Shown: positions 4,328 to 56,017 of the stretch, piece after piece
Layout: the number at the start of each line of letters is the position of its first letter
Position numbering within the stretch: the stretch's first letter is position 1
Assembly: GCA_016196755.1 (NCBI GenBank)
Contig: JACPXC010000038.1
Location: 1-64,000 of the forward strand
Direction of reading: 5' to 3'
Origin: Elusimicrobiota bacterium
GTDB taxonomy: Bacteria > Elusimicrobiota > Elusimicrobia > UBA1565
DNA: 64,000 bases
The notes under the pieces: generated by a model
What the model was told of the DNA's origin: nothing
The model's input: only the letters and a program-made list of their open reading frames with translations
The model's database searches: none
Program-made: the position numbers and the translations under genes

Positions 4328-6051
4328 ACGCTCGGCTCGTGGCGTTTTTCGATTCGGCGCTGGAGGCCTGCCTGCTCGTCCTGGCCTTCGTCCTGCCGCT
4401 GGCCGTCGAGCTCAAGGCCTACGACCCCTACTCCCTCAAGGCGGCCCTGCTGGCGGCAGGTTCGGCGCTGGCCGCCGGCCTGTGGCTGGCCCGCGCGCTC
4501 GAGGCCGGACGCGTCGAGGTCCCCGCGCCGCGCGCCGGGCTGGCGGGCTTGGGCGCCCTGCTCCTGGTCTGGACCGTCCTGCGCGGCGGCGCGGGCGAAG
4601 CCGGCGCGGTCCGGGCCGCCGGTCCGGCGCTCTTCCTGATAGCCCTGCTCGGCCCAGGCTCGGCGGGCTTCGCGCGCTCCCTGTGCTGGGCCGCGCTGTC
4701 GGCCGCCGCGCTGGCCGGCGGCTATGCCGTCACCGCCCGCCTCGGGCTCGACCCCCTGCCCTGGCAGCCGACCGCGGGCACGCTGGGCTCGCCGGGCCTC
4801 CTAGCCGCGGCGCTCTTGGCCGCCGTCCCGCTGGCCGCGCCCCTTCTGCTCGATCCCGAGGCCCCTGGCTATCGGCGGGCGCTGGCCGGGTTCTTGGGCG
4901 CCGTCTGCGTCGCCGGCCTGGCGGCGGCCGCCGCCGCGCTCGATGCCGCGGCGCTGGCCGCGGCGATGCCGGCCAAGGCCGAGGCCGTGCGCGCCGCCGC
5001 CGCGATGCTGCTCCAGAGCCCGTGGTCCGGCATCGGGGCGGGCGAACTGCCGATCCGCCTGCTCTGGGGACGCCCCGAAGCCGCCGCGGCGCTCCTGCCC
5101 GTCCCCCCCTCGGAACCGCTGGCCACCGCCGCGGAGTTGGGCCTGCCGGCCGCCGCGCTGTGGGGCGTCCTCATCCTGGGCTCGGTCTCGCTGGCCCTGC
5201 TCGACGCCCGGCGGCGTCTGGCGGCGGGCGACAAGCGCAACGCCTCGCTGGCCGGCGCGCAGGGCGCGTCGCTCATCCTCCTGGTGGGAGCCGGGCTCCT
5301 GACCGGGGCCAGCTACGCCCCGGCGCCCGGGGTCTGGCTCTGGCTCCTGGCCGGCTCGGCCGCGGCCCTGGCCCTCGAGGAAGGCGCCTCGGTCGTGCGC
5401 GCCCTGCCCCTCCCTCTGCCGCCCGCGCCGCGCCGCCTCCTGATGCTCCCTCTGGCCGCGGCGGTGGCCGTCTTGACCGCCGGCCCCCTGCTCCGCGCGG
5501 CCGACCAGCTGCGCCTCAACCGCGGCGCCGCCGAGGAGGAGGCGGGCGAGGGCGGCCGCGCGCTGGAACTCTACCGATCCATCGCCCCCGACTCGCTGAG
5601 CGGCCTCCAGGCCCGCTTGCGCGGGACGCGCATCCTCCTCGAGGGCGAAGGGACCGCCGCGGCCGAGGAGGCCCGCGCCTTCATCGCCCAAGCCGCCGCG
5701 GTCGACGCCCGCTTCGGGGACGTCCTCTACCTGCGCGCCGAGGCCGACCGCCGCCGCAAGGCTTGGGCCGAGGCGGCCAAGGGCTTCGAGCTCTACGCCG
5801 CCCTCAACCCCGCCGACGCGCGGACCTACAAGCCGCTGGCGGAGCTCCGCCAGACCCTGGGCGACCGCCAAGCCGCCGTCGACGCCGCCCAGGCCCTCGT
5901 ACGCCTGAGCCCGGAGAGCCCCGAGGCCTGGCGCTTCTATGCCGAGCAGGTCCATACCATCGACCCGGACGCCGCGCGCCCGCTCTACAAGAAGGCCGCC
6001 CAGGTCCAAGACCTGGCCACCACCCGCAGGGACACCCAGCTCATCCCGTAG
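4324..6051 (+). CDS. O-antigen-ligase-like polytopic membrane protein with C-terminal TPRs
   Basis: The protein has 575 residues. About ten hydrophobic segments occupy residues 10-400, beginning LLVLAFVLPLAVELKAYDPY, the usual opening of O-antigen ligase/Wzy-type proteins. The segment GIGAGELPIRLLWG...EPLATAAELGLPAAALWG resembles the Wzy_C signature (GxGxGxF...HNxxLxxxxExGxxG). Catalytic residues are hard to place, and the central His of the HN motif seems absent. After the last membrane segment, residues 400-575 are helical repeats of TPR type. The start overlaps the anti-sigma stop by 4 nt. It may be a polymerase/ligase or a sensor serving the sigma/anti-sigma pair; the function is unproven. 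Confidence 0.72.
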   Translation: MNARLVAFFDSALEACLLVLAFVLPLAVELKAYDPYSLKAALLAAGSALAAGLWLARALEAGRVEVPAPRAGLAGLGALLLVWTVLRGGAGEAGAVRAAGPALFLIALLGPGSAGFARSLCWAALSAAALAGGYAVTARLGLDPLPWQPTAGTLGSPGLLAAALLAAVPLAAPLLLDPEAPGYRRALAGFLGAVCVAGLAAAAAALDAAALAAAMPAKAEAVRAAAAMLLQSPWSGIGAGELPIRLLWGRPEAAAALLPVPPSEPLATAAELGLPAAALWGVLILGSVSLALLDARRRLAAGDKRNASLAGAQGASLILLVGAGLLTGASYAPAPGVWLWLLAGSAAALALEEGASVVRALPLPLPPAPRRLLMLPLAAAVAVLTAGPLLRAADQLRLNRGAAEEEAGEGGRALELYRSIAPDSLSGLQARLRGTRILLEGEGTAAAEEARAFIAQAAAVDARFGDVLYLRAEADRRRKAWAEAAKGFELYAALNPADARTYKPLAELRQTLGDRQAAVDAAQALVRLSPESPEAWRFYAEQVHTIDPDAARPLYKKAAQVQDLATTRRDTQLIP

Positions 6052-6073
6052 CAAGTAAACGCAACGCGCCTGG

Positions 6074-6090
6074 CACCGATACTTTCGGTG
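6074..6090. repeat. Short intergenic inverted repeat
   Basis: CACCGA-N5-TCGGTG lies inside CTGGCACCGATACTTTCGG in the 111-nt gap after the membrane TPR gene. It is too short and lacks a T-run to be called a terminator. It resembles dispersed extragenic palindromes, but only one copy is seen in this window. Confidence 0.3.
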
Positions 6091-6162
6091 ACATGGGGTG
6101 ACACGGGAGCCGTTGGATTGGTCCGGAGGCGGAGGTAACCTATAGACGAGGGGGAGGTCCCC

Positions 6163-7074
6163 ATGACCCGCCACGTCCCTGCTCGCCGCATCCTCGTCCC
6201 GATCGACTTCTCGCCGCTGTCGCTCAACGCTCTGCGCGCGGCGATGGCGCTCGGGGACCGTTTCGGCAGCCTGCTGCAGTTGCTCTTCGTCCTCGAGCCC
6301 GAGCAGCCCACCGCCATGGGCATGGCCGGCCTCGGCATCGCGGCGTTTCCAATGATCGACTCCGCGCCGACGCTCAAGGCGGCGCGCGAGCGCCTCAAGA
6401 AGGAGTCCTCGGGCTACGCCGGGCCGGTGACGCTCCGCGCCGTCGTCGGCTCCGCGGTGGCGACGATTCAGCGCGCCGCGCTCAGCGGGCGGGCCGATAT
6501 GATCGTGATGGGGACGCACGGCCGCCAAGGCCTCAAGCGGGTCCTATTCGGCTCGACGGCGGAATCGGTGGTCCGCGGCTCCGCCGTCCCGGTCCTGACC
6601 GTGCATGGCGGCAAGCGGCCGCTCCAACTGCGCCGCCTGCTATGCCCGTTCAACATGACTCCGCACGCCGAACGGACCTTGGCCTACGCCAACGCCCTGG
6701 CGCAAGAGCTGGGGGCCGCCCTGACGGTGCTCTACGTGCGCGGCGAGCACGATTGGGAGGAGGACCAGCGGCTCGAGCTGAGGGCGCGCCTGCGCCAGAC
6801 GCTGGGCTCGCGCGGCAGTCACCTCGACCTGCGCATCGTGCCGGGCCGCTCGCCCGAGGAGGCCATCGTCCGGGAGGCGGGGCGCGGCTACGACGCCGTA
6901 GTCCTCTGCGAGCACCCTCTGGCGTGGTCGCCCAGCCAGCTCATGGGCAGCACGGCCGAGAAGACCGTGCGGGACTGCGACGTGCCGGTGCTCTCGGTGC
7001 CCGTGCGGGCCGGCGTGGTGCCGCGCTGGGCCGCCGCGCGCCGTCCGGCCGGCAAGGGAGGCGTCCTGATCTAG
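6163..7074 (+). CDS. Universal stress protein with two UspA domains
   Basis: The protein has 303 residues with two UspA folds in tandem. Domain 1 (about 5-145) begins RILVPIDFSPLSLNALRAA and carries the ATP-binding motif MGTHGRQGLKRVLFGSTAE (GxxGx9G(S/T)). Domain 2 (about 150-285) begins RRLLCPFNMTPHAERTL and ends MGSTAEKTVRDCDVPVLSV, with a degenerate nucleotide-binding loop. It is probably a cytoplasmic stress or ATP-sensing protein. GGGGGAGG lies 5 nt before the ATG and gives a strong start. It appears to be a single-gene unit, with the next gene convergent. Confidence 0.93.
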   Translation: MTRHVPARRILVPIDFSPLSLNALRAAMALGDRFGSLLQLLFVLEPEQPTAMGMAGLGIAAFPMIDSAPTLKAARERLKKESSGYAGPVTLRAVVGSAVATIQRAALSGRADMIVMGTHGRQGLKRVLFGSTAESVVRGSAVPVLTVHGGKRPLQLRRLLCPFNMTPHAERTLAYANALAQELGAALTVLYVRGEHDWEEDQRLELRARLRQTLGSRGSHLDLRIVPGRSPEEAIVREAGRGYDAVVLCEHPLAWSPSQLMGSTAEKTVRDCDVPVLSVPVRAGVVPRWAAARRPAGKGGVLI

Positions 7075-50041: not shown

Positions 50042-50099
50042 GGGGCTATGGGATTATGGCCGCAGCGCGTAATCGATTTGTTGCGTAGAATGCAGGAGT

Positions 50100-51983
50100 A
50101 TGGACCGGGCCCCAGTCCTGCTCTCCGAAGCCGCCGCCCACGAAGCGGCCGGGCGCAGGGTCGCGGCCGAGCGTGCCTTGCGCGCCGCGGCGCGGCTCCT
50201 GCCGCAAGCGCGGCTGAACCTGGCCGCCTTCCTTCATAGAGGCGGCAGGGTGGCCGCGGCTGCCAAGGTCTATCGCTCCGCGGCCCGCGGCAGCCTGCGG
50301 CCCCGGGCCCTGCGCGGCCTGGGCGAGTGCCTGTTCGTGCTCGGCCGCCATGCCGAGGCCGCGAAGGCCTTGGCAGGGGCCCAAGACCCCGTCGGCGCGT
50401 TCCTGCTCGGCCTGACGAGCGGGGACCGGGGCGCGCTCCTGCGGGCCGCGCGCGACGTACGTCTGCGCCCCCGCGCGCTGGCCCAGCTCGGGCGCCTCGA
50501 CTTGGACGCCGGGCGGCCGGAGCGAGCCGAGCTCCGCTTCCGGCGAGCCCTTTCGGCGGCGCCAAATGACGCCGGGGCGCTCCTAGGCCTAGGCGAGGCC
50601 AGCCTCAGGCAGGGTCGTCCCGATGAGGCGCGGGACTGGCTGAGGCGGGCGCTGAAGGCCGGGGCCGCTGAAGCCCTGCCGGGATTGGCCCAAGCGACCT
50701 TGGCGTCGGGAAACCCTCGAGAAGCGCTCCGCCTGGCCCGCCGGGCTTTGAACGAGCAGCCCGGGCGCGAAGAGGCCGCCGAGATCTTGGAGCAAGCCCT
50801 GCGGCGCACGGGGCGCCTGGCCGAGGCGGACGCCACGGCCGCCGCTTGGTCCGGCAAGGCCGAGCGCCCCGCGCTCCTGCTCCGTGCCGCCGCGAAGCTC
50901 CTCGACGACGGCCGTTGGGACGCAGCCAGGCGAGCATTCAGGTCCGCGGCGCGCGCCTCGGACGCCCCCGGCCGCGTGCGCGCGTCGGTCTTGGCCGGGG
51001 ATTTCGAGACGGCCGTCCGGACGGCCAAAGCCTCTCCCGCCGCCGCGACGGCGGAGGCGGCGCTGTGGCCGCTGGGCGCCCTGCCGTCGGCCCCGCCCGC
51101 CGAGGCCGTCGAGCGCCTGCTCGCCGGTCTAGGGCGCTCGCGCTGTCCGCGCCCGTATCGAGCCTTGTTCGAGGCGGCCTTCCTCGAGAACCTGGGCCGC
51201 GAAGGCGAAGCTCTTGCGGCGCTTTCCGCCAAAGACCCATGGACCGCGCTGGCGCGCGGCCGCCTGCTCCTTAACGCCGCCGCGCGGCATGAGGAGGCCG
51301 CGGTCTGCCTGGCTCGCGCCGCGAAAGCGGGACTCTGGAAGGCCGAGGGCTGGCTGGCCGAGATCGACCTGTGCCGGGGACGCCGCACGCGCGCGCTGGC
51401 CCGGCTCGGGAAGGTGATCTCCAGGCTAGAAGGGGCCGCGCGCGGCGAGGCCTTGGCGTGGCGCGCGGCCCTGCGCCTCTGGACCGGCGACGCCCGCGGC
51501 GCGCTGTCCGATGCCCGGGGCGGCGGCGCCTTGGGCGCGCGCTTTTCCGCCTGTTGGGAAGGAGCGGCGCTCTTCCTGCTGGGCGACCGGGCCGCGGCGA
51601 AGCGCGCGCTCGACGCCGCGCTGGCCGTCAACCCCGCCGACCGCGAGGCGCTGGTCTGGCGCGCGGAGCTCTTCCGAAAGGCCGGGCGCGTCGCGGCCTC
51701 CCGCGCCGACCTCGAGCGCGCGCTCAGGCTGGAAGCGCGCCCGGTCTGGGCGCTCGTCGATCTGGCCCTGCTCGACGCCGAGGCCGGCGACGACGCGCGG
51801 CTATGGGACAGGCTGCTCGCGATGGGGCCAGCGCTGAATGCCTGGGCCCCGCGCGGAATGGACCCTCTTCGGCTGGGACCGCGCCGGGCCGTCGCCATCC
51901 TCGAACGGGGCCTGAAAAATGCTCGCGGCCTGCGCCGCAGCGAGCGCTACCTAGATCCGCTCTGGGGAGGACCGGGACGCTGA
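50100..51983 (+). CDS. TPR-array protein
   Basis: The protein has 627 residues made almost wholly of TPR-type helical pairs (LRFRRALSAAPNDAGALLGL, WLRRALKAGAAEALPGLAQA, RALDAALAVNPADREALVWR). It has no signal peptide, so it is probably cytoplasmic. It is very rich in Ala, Arg and Leu. No catalytic domain is seen. The ATG at 50100 is preceded by AGGAGT. Divergent transcription with the coiled-coil/propeller gene suggests a shared regulatory region and perhaps a shared complex. Confidence 0.78.
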   Translation: MDRAPVLLSEAAAHEAAGRRVAAERALRAAARLLPQARLNLAAFLHRGGRVAAAAKVYRSAARGSLRPRALRGLGECLFVLGRHAEAAKALAGAQDPVGAFLLGLTSGDRGALLRAARDVRLRPRALAQLGRLDLDAGRPERAELRFRRALSAAPNDAGALLGLGEASLRQGRPDEARDWLRRALKAGAAEALPGLAQATLASGNPREALRLARRALNEQPGREEAAEILEQALRRTGRLAEADATAAAWSGKAERPALLLRAAAKLLDDGRWDAARRAFRSAARASDAPGRVRASVLAGDFETAVRTAKASPAAATAEAALWPLGALPSAPPAEAVERLLAGLGRSRCPRPYRALFEAAFLENLGREGEALAALSAKDPWTALARGRLLLNAAARHEEAAVCLARAAKAGLWKAEGWLAEIDLCRGRRTRALARLGKVISRLEGAARGEALAWRAALRLWTGDARGALSDARGGGALGARFSACWEGAALFLLGDRAAAKRALDAALAVNPADREALVWRAELFRKAGRVAASRADLERALRLEARPVWALVDLALLDAEAGDDARLWDRLLAMGPALNAWAPRGMDPLRLGPRRAVAILERGLKNARGLRRSERYLDPLWGGPGR

Positions 51984-52000
51984 CGGAAGGCGGACAGCAG

Positions 52001-52029
52001 TTGACATGTTACTGTTTATAGTATATAGT
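52001..52029 (+). promoter_or_regulatory. Near-consensus sigma-70 promoter of the ATPase/STAS-like pair
   Basis: A perfect TTGACA (52001-52006), a 17-nt spacer and TATAGT (52024-52029) stand in an AT-rich island. Transcription should begin near 52036, only about 6 nt before the ATG at 52042. Confidence 0.85.
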
Positions 52030-52039
52030 AAACTATAAA
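52015..52039. promoter_or_regulatory. Operator-like inverted repeat over the -10 box
   Basis: TTTATAGT (52015-52022) and ACTATAAA (52032-52039) are perfect inverted 8-mers separated by 9 nt. They span the -10 element and the predicted start site. The first gene encodes a winged-helix protein, so autorepression is the simplest reading. Confidence 0.6.
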
Positions 52040-52041
52040 TA

Positions 52042-52809
52042 ATGAAGACCAGTACGCGCGCTAGGATTCTGGAAATAATTAGGAGTCAGAGCGGGACTCG
52101 CCCTGCTGACTTAGTCAAGACCTTGGCACTGACCCCCCAGGCAGTCCACCGTCACCTTCGGACATTGCTGGCCGAAGGCCGACTCGAGCGTCGTGGGGGA
52201 GGACCCAAGGTCCGATACTTCATCGCTGGAAAGCCGCAGTTGGAACAAGTCCGGGCGTGGTACGGCGCGGAATCGAAGCCCGCAGAGAACCCGCCCGATC
52301 TCATCTGCGAAACCCGTGACGCATTCGCCGGGAGGCTGCCCAGGCTGACCTTGACCGGCTTGGGGCAGGACGATCAGTCGCTGGCGATAGCCGCAGTCGG
52401 CGAGATCGGAAACAACAGTTTTGACCACAACCTTGGCAAATGGAGGGATACCCCCGGATGCTGGTATCAAATCCAATCTACCGGCGGCCGCTTATGGATT
52501 TGCATCGCCGATCGCGGACAAGGCATCCTGAAGTCGTTGGCTCGCGTCGATTCGACGATCAGGGATGACCAGACCGCGCTTGTGACGGCCTTCGAGAAGA
52601 TCTTGTCCGGAAGGGCTCCGGAAAGACGTGGAAACGGTTTGAAGTATGTCAGAAACATCATTACGGGTAAAGATCGCCGTGGGCTCGCATGCCGGTCCGG
52701 CGCCGGACTGGTGGACTACGGAAAGCTCGGCGCGGAGTGCAAGGAGGAACTTGCGGATTTTCCAAAGTCTGAGGGCACGGTCACCTTGATCACTTGGAGC
52801 TTGAAATGA
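52042..52809 (+). CDS. Winged-helix protein with GHKL (histidine-kinase/anti-sigma-like) ATPase domain
   Basis: The protein has 255 residues. Residues 1-75 are a winged helix (RPADLVKTLALTPQAVHRHL, AEGRLERRGGGPKVRYFIAG). Residues about 105-255 form a GHKL ATPase: N-box AVGEIGNNSFDHNLG, G1 box CIADRGQGIL and G2 box RRGNGLKYVRNII. There is no phospho-His domain. It combines DNA binding with an RsbW/SpoIIAB-type ATPase in one chain. The stop overlaps the STAS-like gene (ATGA). Base composition is clearly less GC-rich than its surroundings, and an AT-rich promoter precedes it, suggesting acquisition as a module. Confidence 0.85.
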   Translation: MKTSTRARILEIIRSQSGTRPADLVKTLALTPQAVHRHLRTLLAEGRLERRGGGPKVRYFIAGKPQLEQVRAWYGAESKPAENPPDLICETRDAFAGRLPRLTLTGLGQDDQSLAIAAVGEIGNNSFDHNLGKWRDTPGCWYQIQSTGGRLWICIADRGQGILKSLARVDSTIRDDQTALVTAFEKILSGRAPERRGNGLKYVRNIITGKDRRGLACRSGAGLVDYGKLGAECKEELADFPKSEGTVTLITWSLK

Positions 52810-53087
52810 AAATCCCGCTGAATAAATACGGTCAGATCCTGACATCCCGGCCCGCTGGCCGCGAGGCGGCGCTGGCCATGAAGGCGACCGTCAACCCCGC
52901 CGACGATGAGACTGTCGAATTGGATTTCGAAGGCGTGCTCTCCATCGGTCCGTCCTGGCTAGATGAAGTCCTCAGCTCCCTGCGTGCCGAATTTGGCAGG
53001 GATCGGGTCATCTGCCTCCCGACGAAGAATCCTTCTGTCATCGAGTCATTGAGAGTAGTCGACGCGCATCCACCGCATTCCGAGTGA
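52806..53087 (+). CDS. STAS-like protein (DUF4325 type)
   Basis: The product has 93 residues from ATG 52806, overlapping the ATPase stop. The core ETVELDFEGVLSIGPSWLDE followed by VLSSLRAEFG matches the STAS-like DUF4325 pattern (VxLDFxGVxxIxxSFxDE). These resemble anti-sigma-factor antagonists, and genes of this type commonly follow GHKL ATPases. A direct interaction with the upstream ATPase is therefore likely. A typical phospho-Ser is replaced by the IGPSW segment, where Ser could still serve. Confidence 0.8.
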   Translation: MKIPLNKYGQILTSRPAGREAALAMKATVNPADDETVELDFEGVLSIGPSWLDEVLSSLRAEFGRDRVICLPTKNPSVIESLRVVDAHPPHSE

Positions 53088-53144
53088 GGAAAAGACCGAA
53101 GCCCTCAGGTGAGCGTCAGCAAATCAGCGCGCCGCTGCCGCGGA

Positions 53145-54542
53145 TCAGCGCCGCTGCAGGCTCTGCAGCTCGAGGTTGGCTTCCGACAGGTCCACACCCT
53201 TGCCCTTGAAGTCGGCCAGGATGTTCTTTAAGCGCTCGAGCAGGACCGCGTTCGGCACGCCCTGGAGCTTGAGCTCGTGGTACCGGCGCCACTCGTCGCG
53301 GAAGCGCCCCTCGACGTCGGCCTCGCGCTCGGCGGCCTTGATCCGCCTGCGCTCGCCGTCGAGCTTCTGGAGCTCGGCCTCGGCCCTGCGGCGCCGCTCC
53401 TCGAGCTCTTTGAGCCTGACCGCCTGCTCGGCCCGGCGCGCGCGGTCGGCCGCCATGTCGGCCTCCGCGGCCTTGAGGTCCAAGTCGCGGCGCAGGTCGG
53501 TCATCTCGCCGCGCATGACCCGCAGTTCCTCGGCCAGCTTCCACTGCTTGACCTCGGCGGCCTCGAGCGCGGCCGAGAGGTCGCCGCGGTAGCTCATCTC
53601 GGTGCGCAAAAGACGCTCGTACTCGCCCTCGGGGTCCCAGGCGCCGAACTTGTAGCCCAGGCTGAGCACGTGGCTCCACCGCGAGCCGTGGGCCAGGGGG
53701 ACGCGCACCGCGTAGTCGAGCGACGCGCCGAGCACGCTCCAGCCCGCCCCGACGGTCCAGCTCTTGCCGAGGCTTCCTACCGACAGTCCCGAGCGGCCCG
53801 TCAGCAGGCCGCTCTTGACCGTCGCCCAGGAATACTCGAGGCCGGCCCCCAGCGAGGTGGATGCCCGGCGGGCCGCGGTCGGCTCGCGTTGAGTGAGGTC
53901 GGCGACCGTCGTAAATCGCCGCACGGCGCGCGAGACGCCGAGCTTGATCGACACCGGAGCGCGGTCGGTGACCGGCCCCACGTCGGTGCTCGGCCCGTTG
54001 ATGTTGAGGATCGAGAGGCCGAGCGCGCTCTCGCGCCAGCGGTAGTAGAGCCCGAGGTCGAGGCCCGCCTTCGCCGTGGCGCCGCCGAAGCGCCGCCCGG
54101 AGCGGCCGATGGTCTTGAAGGTGATGCCGGCGTCGAGGGTGCCCGGTCCGAGCTCGCGCCAGGAGCGCGAGCCGAAGCTCAGGCCGATGGAGCGGTCGAG
54201 GGCGACCGGCTCGACGACGTCGTGGGTCCAGCTCAGGCCGAAGGCCCCGCGCAGCCACTGCGTGTCGACCGGGACGACGGCGGCCGCGCCCATGCCGTCG
54301 AGGTCCGTCGGCGAGGCCGGGATCTGGAACAGCCGCCGGTGCGTCACCTCGACGCGCGAGCGGCGGATCTGGCCGATCGCCGCGGGGTTGATCGTCAGGG
54401 CCCCCAGGCCCTCGGCGTCGGCGGTGACCGCGTCGGCCAGGGCCGCCGCGCGCGCGCCGAAGGCCACGTCCTCGGTCGAGGCCGCCGCGGGGGCGGCCGC
54501 CAGCGCCAGAGAGAAGAGCGTGCGGCAAAGCTTCGGGGTCAC
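53145..54542 (-). CDS. Outer-membrane barrel protein with C-terminal periplasmic coiled coil
   Basis: The product has 465 residues from GTG 54542, which overlaps the diguanylate-cyclase stop (GTGA). The signal peptide is LFSLALAAAPAAA. A PorV/UPF0164-like barrel spans about 25-330 (LADAVTADAEGLGALTINPA, LGLSILNINGPSTDVG, VLSLGYKFGAWDPEG). A charged coiled coil occupies about 345-430 (RRAEQAVRLKELEERRRRAE), and a short helical end follows (NILADFKGKGVD). The coil may reach peptidoglycan or the inner membrane. It is the last gene of the envC-ctpA-tsaD transcript. Confidence 0.8.
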   Translation of the reverse strand: MTPKLCRTLFSLALAAAPAAASTEDVAFGARAAALADAVTADAEGLGALTINPAAIGQIRRSRVEVTHRRLFQIPASPTDLDGMGAAAVVPVDTQWLRGAFGLSWTHDVVEPVALDRSIGLSFGSRSWRELGPGTLDAGITFKTIGRSGRRFGGATAKAGLDLGLYYRWRESALGLSILNINGPSTDVGPVTDRAPVSIKLGVSRAVRRFTTVADLTQREPTAARRASTSLGAGLEYSWATVKSGLLTGRSGLSVGSLGKSWTVGAGWSVLGASLDYAVRVPLAHGSRWSHVLSLGYKFGAWDPEGEYERLLRTEMSYRGDLSAALEAAEVKQWKLAEELRVMRGEMTDLRRDLDLKAAEADMAADRARRAEQAVRLKELEERRRRAEAELQKLDGERRRIKAAEREADVEGRFRDEWRRYHELKLQGVPNAVLLERLKNILADFKGKGVDLSEANLELQSLQRR

Positions 54543-56017
54543 CGGTCCGCCGCCGACGGACGCTCGAGCAGGGCCTGGCGGTAGGTGCACACCCCGTCGC
54601 GCCCGCGGGTCTTGACCCAGTAGAGCGCCTCGTCGGCCCTCTGCAGGAGGTCTTCGGCGGTGCGGCCGTCCTCCGGGTAGGAGGCGATGCCGATCGAGGC
54701 GGTCACCGAGAGCTCCTTGGCCGACGAGAACGGCACCGGGATGCGCAGCTCGCGGAGGTCGGCCAGGAGGCGCCCCATGATGTTGGCGGCGTCCTCCGCA
54801 GAGGCCTGCGGGAGGAGGATGACGACCTCGTCGCCGCCGTAGCGGGCCGGGAAGTCGATCTTGCGCAGGCGCTTCAAGATGAGCTTCCCGAACTCCTTGA
54901 GCGCCAGGTCGCCGACCTGGTGCCCGTAGCCGTCGTTGATCCCCTTGAAATGGTCCACGTCGATCATCACGACCGAGAGCGGCGCCCCCCCGCGCTCGAC
55001 ACGGTAGAGCTCCTCCTGGAAGCGCTGGGCGAAGTAGCGCCGGACCGCCAGCCCGGTCAGGTGGTCGTAGAGCGAGAGCGCCTGGACCTCCTCGAAGAGC
55101 CGCTGGTTGTCGACGGCCAGGGCGATCTGCCCGGCGAAGGAGCGCAGGAGTCCGATGTCCTCGCCGGGAATGGTCTGCTGGCTGACCAGGTTGTCGACGA
55201 CCAGCAGGCCGATGTTCTGGCCCTGCACCGAGAGCGGCAGGTAGACCACCCGCTCCTCGTAGCGCTTCATGATGGGGTCGGGCCCCTCGCCGCGCATGAT
55301 GCGCGCGAAGCGGTGGTCGCCCTTGAGCGGGATCTCCTCGCCGCGCAGAGACGACGAGCGGCCGCGCAGGTCCGCCGACACCTCGCCGCGCAGAGCGGAG
55401 CGCTCGCGGTCGAGGAGGTACAGGCGCGCGCGGTCGAGGCAGAAGTGGCGCGTGATCCCCTGCAGGATGAGCTTGACGCCGTCCTCGACGCGCAGGGAGC
55501 TCGCGAAGACGGCGGCGAGGTCGGTCAGAGCCTCAAGGCGCTTGAGCTGGCGGCGGCGCGCCGAGCCGGAGCGGGTGCGCTCGAGGTTCTGGGCCAGCTC
55601 GGCGGCCAAGAGGCCCGCCGTCATGCGCTCCGCGGCGGAGAACGGGCGACGGCTGCTCAGGCGCTCGAAGCGCAGGGTTCCCAGCGCCTCGCCCTCTCCG
55701 GCCACGGAGCGCAGCGGCACGTAGAGCACGGCGTGCGGCGAGACCGCGCTCAAGGAGGCGCGCCGCCCCTCGACGAGGCGCGCCAGCGGCGAGGCATCGG
55801 CCAGGTGGACGACCTCGTCCATCTCGAGCCAGAGCTCGCGGTGCAGCGCGTAGCGCAGTTGGAGGTCCCCGTCGGCGCAGAGGAACACCCCGATGCGGTC
55901 GGCGTGCAGGGCGCGCCCGATGAGACGTACCCCGGCCTCGAGCAGGGCGTCCTCGGTCTGGAACACGCGGTTGAGGCGCGTGTGGATGCGGTAGAGGGTC
56001 TCGTGGCGCGCTTTCAT
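54539..56017 (-). CDS. Diguanylate cyclase with two GAF-like domains
   Basis: The protein has 492 residues. GAF-like domain 1 is at about 8-145 and GAF-like domain 2 at about 165-310 (HFCLDRARLYLLDRE, VVYLPLSVQGQNIGLLVVDN). The GGDEF domain is at about 320-480 with DHLTGLAVRRYF, MIDVDHFKGINDGYGHQVGD and the active-site loop ARYGGDEVVILLP. An inhibitory-site RxxD lies five residues before it (RKIDF), so product feedback is expected. It has no signal peptide or TM: a cytoplasmic c-di-GMP synthase. Its stop codon overlaps the barrel gene start, and its start lies directly after the binding-protein stop. Confidence 0.94.
   Translation of the reverse strand: MKARHETLYRIHTRLNRVFQTEDALLEAGVRLIGRALHADRIGVFLCADGDLQLRYALHRELWLEMDEVVHLADASPLARLVEGRRASLSAVSPHAVLYVPLRSVAGEGEALGTLRFERLSSRRPFSAAERMTAGLLAAELAQNLERTRSGSARRRQLKRLEALTDLAAVFASSLRVEDGVKLILQGITRHFCLDRARLYLLDRERSALRGEVSADLRGRSSSLRGEEIPLKGDHRFARIMRGEGPDPIMKRYEERVVYLPLSVQGQNIGLLVVDNLVSQQTIPGEDIGLLRSFAGQIALAVDNQRLFEEVQALSLYDHLTGLAVRRYFAQRFQEELYRVERGGAPLSVVMIDVDHFKGINDGYGHQVGDLALKEFGKLILKRLRKIDFPARYGGDEVVILLPQASAEDAANIMGRLLADLRELRIPVPFSSAKELSVTASIGIASYPEDGRTAEDLLQRADEALYWVKTRGRDGVCTYRQALLERPSAADR

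Follow-up and report, generated by a model that had tools for sequence, protein, structure and literature searches.

A 2026 study (PMC13373217) described two bacterial switches built on a kinase and a STAS protein, CapK-CapS and VapK-VapS-VapC. CapK, activated by single-stranded DNA, phosphorylates a STAS serine of the repressor CapS, which autoregulates, and the CapKS pair is followed by an immune operon in 348 of 443 cases; VapS is the antitoxin of a PIN toxin (PMC13373217). Activation by single-stranded DNA in CapKS and VapKSC involves a conserved aromatic residue, Trp68 in CapK, and the role of the CapK HTH was left open by the authors, whose HTH deletion and reporter experiments had capK under the trc promoter (PMC13373217).

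In a 64,000-nt window of an Elusimicrobiota genome, the whole stretch of DNA analysed here, the open reading frames define a two-gene operon (52001-53087, + strand), hereafter the module, that is a rewired relative of these newly reported switches for bacterial stress and phage defence. Its first gene (52042-52809, + strand) encodes P1, a 255-aa winged-helix and GHKL kinase-like protein, and its second (52806-53087, + strand) encodes P2, a 93-aa STAS-like protein of Pfam family PF14213 (DUF4325). The P1 stop and P2 start codons overlap by 4 nt in an ATGA (52806-52809, + strand), as stated in the original prediction, an earlier reading of this DNA from its letters. In VapK-VapS, too, a GHKL kinase precedes a STAS protein of the DUF4325 family that has a conserved serine (PMC13373217), but VapK contains a STAS domain and lacks a DNA-binding one, whereas P1 has a winged helix and no STAS domain, and VapKSC includes the gene for the VapC (PIN) toxin, whereas the window holds none and the module has no third gene. 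CapK-CapS resembles the module in its kinase-STAS pairing and in a palindrome that overlaps the -10 element, and the autoregulation by CapS has a predicted counterpart here, but its repressor is the STAS protein (CapS, STAS-wHTH), whereas in the module only the kinase carries a DNA-binding domain and P2 is STAS only; CapK itself is an HTH-STAS-GHKL protein, whereas P1 lacks the STAS domain; and the immune operon behind CapKS contrasts with a next gene on the opposite strand behind the module. Because its wiring differs from both CapKS and VapKSC, we class the module as a variant apart from either.

The SpoIIAB-SpoIIAA and RsbW-RsbV pairs resemble the module in the folds of both proteins, the conserved N-box and the serine, but their kinases carry no DNA-binding domain, and the linked sigma factor and PP2C phosphatase of the Rsb and SpoIIA systems have no recurrent equivalent at module homologues. 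Phage and plasmid GHKL + DUF4325 pairs (PHROG 3364 and 5816) have the same domain pair in accessory positions, but their GHKL proteins, of about 300 aa, lack the winged helix and are only distantly similar. On plasmid P5 of Deinococcus gobiensis (4423-6775), an annotated HTH regulator and ATP-binding, STAS-like and PIN proteins are encoded one after another, giving this plasmid an operon that resembles VapKSC. The literature on DUF4325 yielded passing mentions and none on function, and that on PF14213 yielded none.

Our favoured reading, which we consider probable from the sequence comparisons and structure models below, is that the module is a self-contained, mobile and autoregulated kinase-STAS partner switch. 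P1 would bind a repeat over its own promoter and repress the operon, and P2 would be both its STAS partner and its substrate, bound by the GHKL domain and phosphorylated at Ser50. The binding or release of P2 would then change the grip of P1 on the operator, so that the pair would set its own level.

Predicted structures of P1 and P2

The AlphaFold2 model of P1, built with an alignment of 59 homologues (pLDDT 93), comprises a winged helix-turn-helix (residues 1-63), a short helix and a GHKL domain (residues 91-255), a layout that leaves no room for a STAS domain. The winged helix (52042-52230, + strand) scores over the cut-off for Pfam HTH_24, and in the model it matches ArsR, MarR and Z-alpha winged helices with Z 10-12. 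Z-alpha domains, like ArsR/MarR proteins, can be superposed on it, the former to about 1 A, and the likeness to Z-alpha is probably one of shared fold only. The linker helix (residues 64-90; 52231-52311, + strand) contains Trp73, which is invariant in 59/59 aligned homologues, including proteins without a DNA-binding domain. The Pfam HATPase_c score of the remainder is weak and below threshold (14.3 vs a cut-off of 26.4), with the N, G1 and G2 boxes intact: the N-box EIGNNSFDHN (E121...N125...H129; 52402-52431, + strand), the G1 box DRGQG (residues 157-161; 52510-52524, + strand) and the G2 box RGNGL (residues 196-200; 52627-52641, + strand). ATP-site residues are invariant across the 59 homologues, as are E121, N125, H129 and N130 of the N-box. 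In structure, the GHKL part most resembles SpoIIAB (1l0o, Z 12.6; 1til, Z 12.5; 132 residues, 3.0 A), and RsbW (6m37) matches with Z 10.6. By its motifs and model, then, P1 is predicted to have a GHKL anti-sigma-type kinase-like fold, and the claim that the ATPase carries its own DNA-binding domain is borne out by the fusion of a winged helix to GHKL.

P2 is a STAS protein throughout its 93 aa, with no DNA-binding domain, and scores 37.1 bits against a gathering cut-off of 23 for PF14213. A fragment of Escherichia VapS matches the same family at 2.6e-14, which ties P2 and VapS to DUF4325 together, and a search of PDB sequences with the P2 profile also ranked VapS first, at a weak E of 0.11. 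Foldseek alone returned no significant match for the AlphaFold2 model of P2 (alignment of 64 homologues, pLDDT 92); in a second look with VIA-align, STAS proteins led the list with Z 5-7.5 (3t6o 7.5, RsbS 6.6, SpoIIAA 6.0, RsfB 5.8), values that are middling (under 8) and with which the Pfam assignment agrees. Ser50 of P2 (GPSWLDE; codon 52953-52955, + strand) is invariant in 64/64 homologues and occupies the place of the phospho-serine in SpoIIAA. It lies ten residues past a conserved Asp of P2, the same distance that separates the SpoIIAA phospho-serine from its own conserved Asp. The original prediction had recognized both components of a partner switch here, which the structure models bear out as a SpoIIAB-like GHKL protein and a SpoIIAA-like STAS protein.

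From these conserved positions P1 probably phosphorylates P2 at Ser50, as CapK does CapS at the equivalent STAS serine (PMC13373217), although a kinase and a plain ATPase are inseparable by sequence. The glutamate and asparagine of the N-box are common to GHKL kinases and ATPases, and this lack of kinase specificity within GHKL would suit an ATP-driven clamp or ATPase, in which the ATP state alone gates DNA binding and P2 is an unphosphorylated regulatory subunit. We consider such a clamp improbable, as the domain's neighbours in structure are kinases that act on STAS proteins and the phospho-acceptor position is occupied in every aligned homologue by the same serine, Ser50. The same neighbours, with SpoIIAB and RsbW as the top matches of the GHKL domain and STAS antagonists as those of P2, could instead point to a classical anti-sigma and anti-anti-sigma pair, in which P1 sequesters a sigma factor, P2 frees it and the winged helix only autoregulates. 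However, no sigma factor or phosphatase gene was recurrently linked to the pair in 80 homologous loci and the module's own genome contains no SpoIIE phosphatase, and we regard this as the least likely of the alternatives considered. Two PP2C_2 proteins are present in that genome alongside the absence of the SpoIIE family, and 12 Patescibacteria hosts searched for SpoIIE as well as PP2C_2 phosphatases had neither. Without a SpoIIE-type enzyme, a switch of the classical reversible kind would have to rely on some other phosphatase or be reset by new synthesis.

Promoter, operator and DNA-binding domain

The module begins with a -35 hexamer TTGACA (52001-52006, + strand) and, after a 17-nt spacer, a -10 hexamer TATAGT (52024-52029, + strand) that ends 12 nt before the P1 start codon. 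This promoter matches the consensus at 11/12 positions, and a promoter scan found 2 promoter-like sites vs 0.2 expected. A perfect 8-bp inverted repeat with a 9-nt spacer (52015-52039; arms TTTATAGT at 52015-52022 and ACTATAAA at 52032-52039) overlies the promoter spacer and the -10 hexamer, and it represents a diverged form of the operator found across the family, ATAGTTTATAGTTTA-N3-TAAACTATAAACTAT. There is no Shine-Dalgarno-like sequence before P1, nor before any of 34 winged-helix homologues (0/34), which together with the -10 only 12 nt from the ATG makes a near-leaderless mRNA a fair prediction. The promoter with its overlying repeat and the short leader had all been noted in the original prediction, as had the placing of the pair under an operator, and the repeat is conserved at the promoter in related genomes. 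This conservation of pair and operator, along with low dN/dS relative to the nearest homologue (~0.11 for P1 and ~0.08 for P2), indicates that the module is more than a chance arrangement, and both genes are under purifying selection.

We found that the operator type changes together with the DNA-binding domain. Among the loci compared, 35 encode winged helix + GHKL, 16 a MerR-type HTH + GHKL (Pfam MerR, 3e-13) and 25 GHKL alone. In winged-helix forms, 7-bp repeats arranged as palindromes immediately precede the start codon, with the family operator as the full form, whereas MerR-type forms have 10-bp direct repeats upstream, such as TTTGCATAGA. The upstream 7-bp periodicity was 0.50 in 34 winged-helix forms vs 0.31 in domain-less forms (p 1.5e-8) and the 10-bp periodicity 0.45 in 16 MerR forms vs 0.31 (p 7e-4), p-values that are optimistic because the homologues are related and independence is overstated; the contrast between architecture classes is plain despite this kinship. 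Neither periodicity was seen upstream of the 25 domain-less forms, nor in any class when control stretches lying a further 150 and 300 nt upstream were examined. The winged-helix forms occupy separate parts of the tree, an Elusimicrobia-Bdellovibrionota group and Magasanikbacteria, and an ATAGT repeat is common to both. This co-change is a new finding, and, like the genome-wide confinement of the operator described below, it lay beyond the view of the original prediction.

It is very likely that P1 binds this operator, and only slightly less so that it represses its own promoter. Within the 4.6-Mb genome, the repeat occurs once at the module at up to 3 mismatches, with a single 3-mismatch site elsewhere, and across Elusimicrobiota the full operator (<=3 mismatches) was present in 13/97 genomes, once in each. 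Coordinates compared by hand place all 13 sites next to the module or, in one genome (G012), next to its remnant. The half-operator gave 13/14 matches at the module in 22 scanned host genomes, and the MerR-type repeat 9/9 in the host genomes scanned, counts that reflect fixed mismatch limits, which diverged sites would escape. The DNA-binding domain thus seems to serve autoregulation only and control of DNA by P1 looks limited to the module itself, so that any wider effect on the cell must use protein contacts of P1 or P2 or the dose of the module.

Distribution and genomic context

The module has the lowest GC of the 64 one-kb bins in the window (57.2% vs 69.4% for the whole), in keeping with the distinct base composition originally described. 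It lies between a TPR-protein gene upstream (50100-51983, GC 76%) and a gene on the opposite strand downstream (53145-54590). In two genomes of the same genus the module is absent from this site: a 3.1-kb segment holding the TPR-protein gene and the module (50042-53148) is missing, and the genes that flank it adjoin each other in both, although the exact insertion borders are not definable because the flanking intergenic DNA has diverged. The TPR gene has no close counterpart at the site in these same-genus genomes and only distant relatives in the genomes searched.

Matches were found in 21/97 related genomes (own included), comprising 17 full-length winged-helix forms, 3 without that domain and 1 remnant. 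In the remnant (1440-2000 of locus L024, in G012) the P1 start codon and the bulk of that gene are gone, but the operator and P2 are intact. A scan of one genome per species yielded 419 relatives, the best 80 of which come from Elusimicrobiota, Bdellovibrionota, Myxococcota and many Patescibacteria, and P2 directly follows P1 in 80/80 testable loci. A quick-method tree built from the GHKL and STAS parts places three Elusimicrobia copies inside a Bdellovibrionota/Myxococcota group with support of 95-98, a position that points to transfer between phyla. The pair is therefore mobile, patchy in Elusimicrobiota and common to several phyla, and the portability that had been proposed holds in its spread as well as in its absence from the same site in two congeners. 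No plasmid or phage carriage was found for P1 of this subfamily; plasmids gave one weak match to P2, and among viral contigs a single distant relative of P1 lay at the end of a contig. The module's own genome holds a second kinase-STAS pair (contig C10, 85297-88461), in which a GHKL protein of 320 aa, extended by an additional N-terminal region, precedes a 145-aa ORF that contains a DUF4325 domain, a VapK-VapS-like layout with no PIN gene in the stretch examined, and a 430-aa chain that combines GHKL and DUF4325-like domains (contig C47, 353-1645).

The main rival to a partner switch is an addiction pair of the toxin-antitoxin kind, in which free kinase P1 would be harmful, P2 would act as both antidote and sink, and the DNA-binding domain of P1 together with P2 would control the promoter in type II style. 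The anatomy is type II-like, with overlapping genes and a DNA-binding domain on one partner, and the operator at its own promoter only, the lack of cargo, the patchy spread and the insertion among housekeeping genes would all suit such a pair. The remnant in G012, which kept operator and P2 without P1, is as expected if P2 is harmless, but it is a single event. The relative VapS is an antitoxin (PMC13373217), but the toxin role in VapKSC falls to a separate PIN protein, which the module lacks, and neither P1 nor P2 has a toxin domain. We consider an addiction pair a possible but distinctly less likely explanation than the partner switch.

The original prediction had also considered that an unrelated third gene might be consistently linked to the pair. 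Across the 80 loci we found no recurrent third gene beyond clade-level synteny and common families (TrmB, Fic). In four loci of a Magasanikbacteria clade (L047, L048, L054 and L056) P2 is followed, at a gap of <25 nt in 3/4, by a gene that is presumably rmuC-like. PADLOC defence families showed no excess within 2.5 kb of homologous pairs vs 6-9.5 kb away (PADLOC and Pfam, 145 proteins each, with crude gene calls). A defence-island reading was rejected on this lack of difference between near and far neighbours, and the suggestion of a defence-type module accordingly found no backing in the neighbourhood survey. A defence or toxin-antitoxin function could nevertheless apply to the pair, since CapKS and VapKSC, the closest relatives that have been characterised, are systems of this kind (PMC13373217). 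It might also act as a CapKS-type controller that regulates near or distant genes on a signal such as DNA damage, as suggested by the gene close behind the pair in one Magasanikbacteria clade and by the closest characterised kinase-STAS pairs, which act so (PMC13373217). We think this improbable, as there is no second operator near or far, the downstream genes differ from locus to locus and defence families are not enriched near the pair.

Implications for kinase-STAS pairs

Returning to the partner switch, we regard the influence of P2 on DNA binding by P1 as a tentative part of the scheme, which may or may not hold. For the trigger, single-stranded DNA is a guess on the precedent of CapK, and a rather doubtful one; Trp73 would be our guess for its contact. 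It is also conceivable, if unlikely, that the module represents a class of mobile, self-addressed kinase modules with an exchangeable DNA-binding domain, an operator only of their own, a STAS substrate and no PP2C phosphatase, acting as toxin-antitoxin or defence units.

Pairs with DUF4325 occur widely in Patescibacteria, phages and plasmids, and for most of them no function has been assigned. In the pairs compared here the kinase-STAS pair is rewired, with a DNA-binding domain of two exchangeable types on the kinase rather than on the substrate, and the operator follows the domain. The module offers a clean case of a kinase as its own predicted repressor, and this suggests to us a role for the CapK HTH, namely autoregulation at the native capK promoter, a role that would escape notice with capK under the trc promoter.
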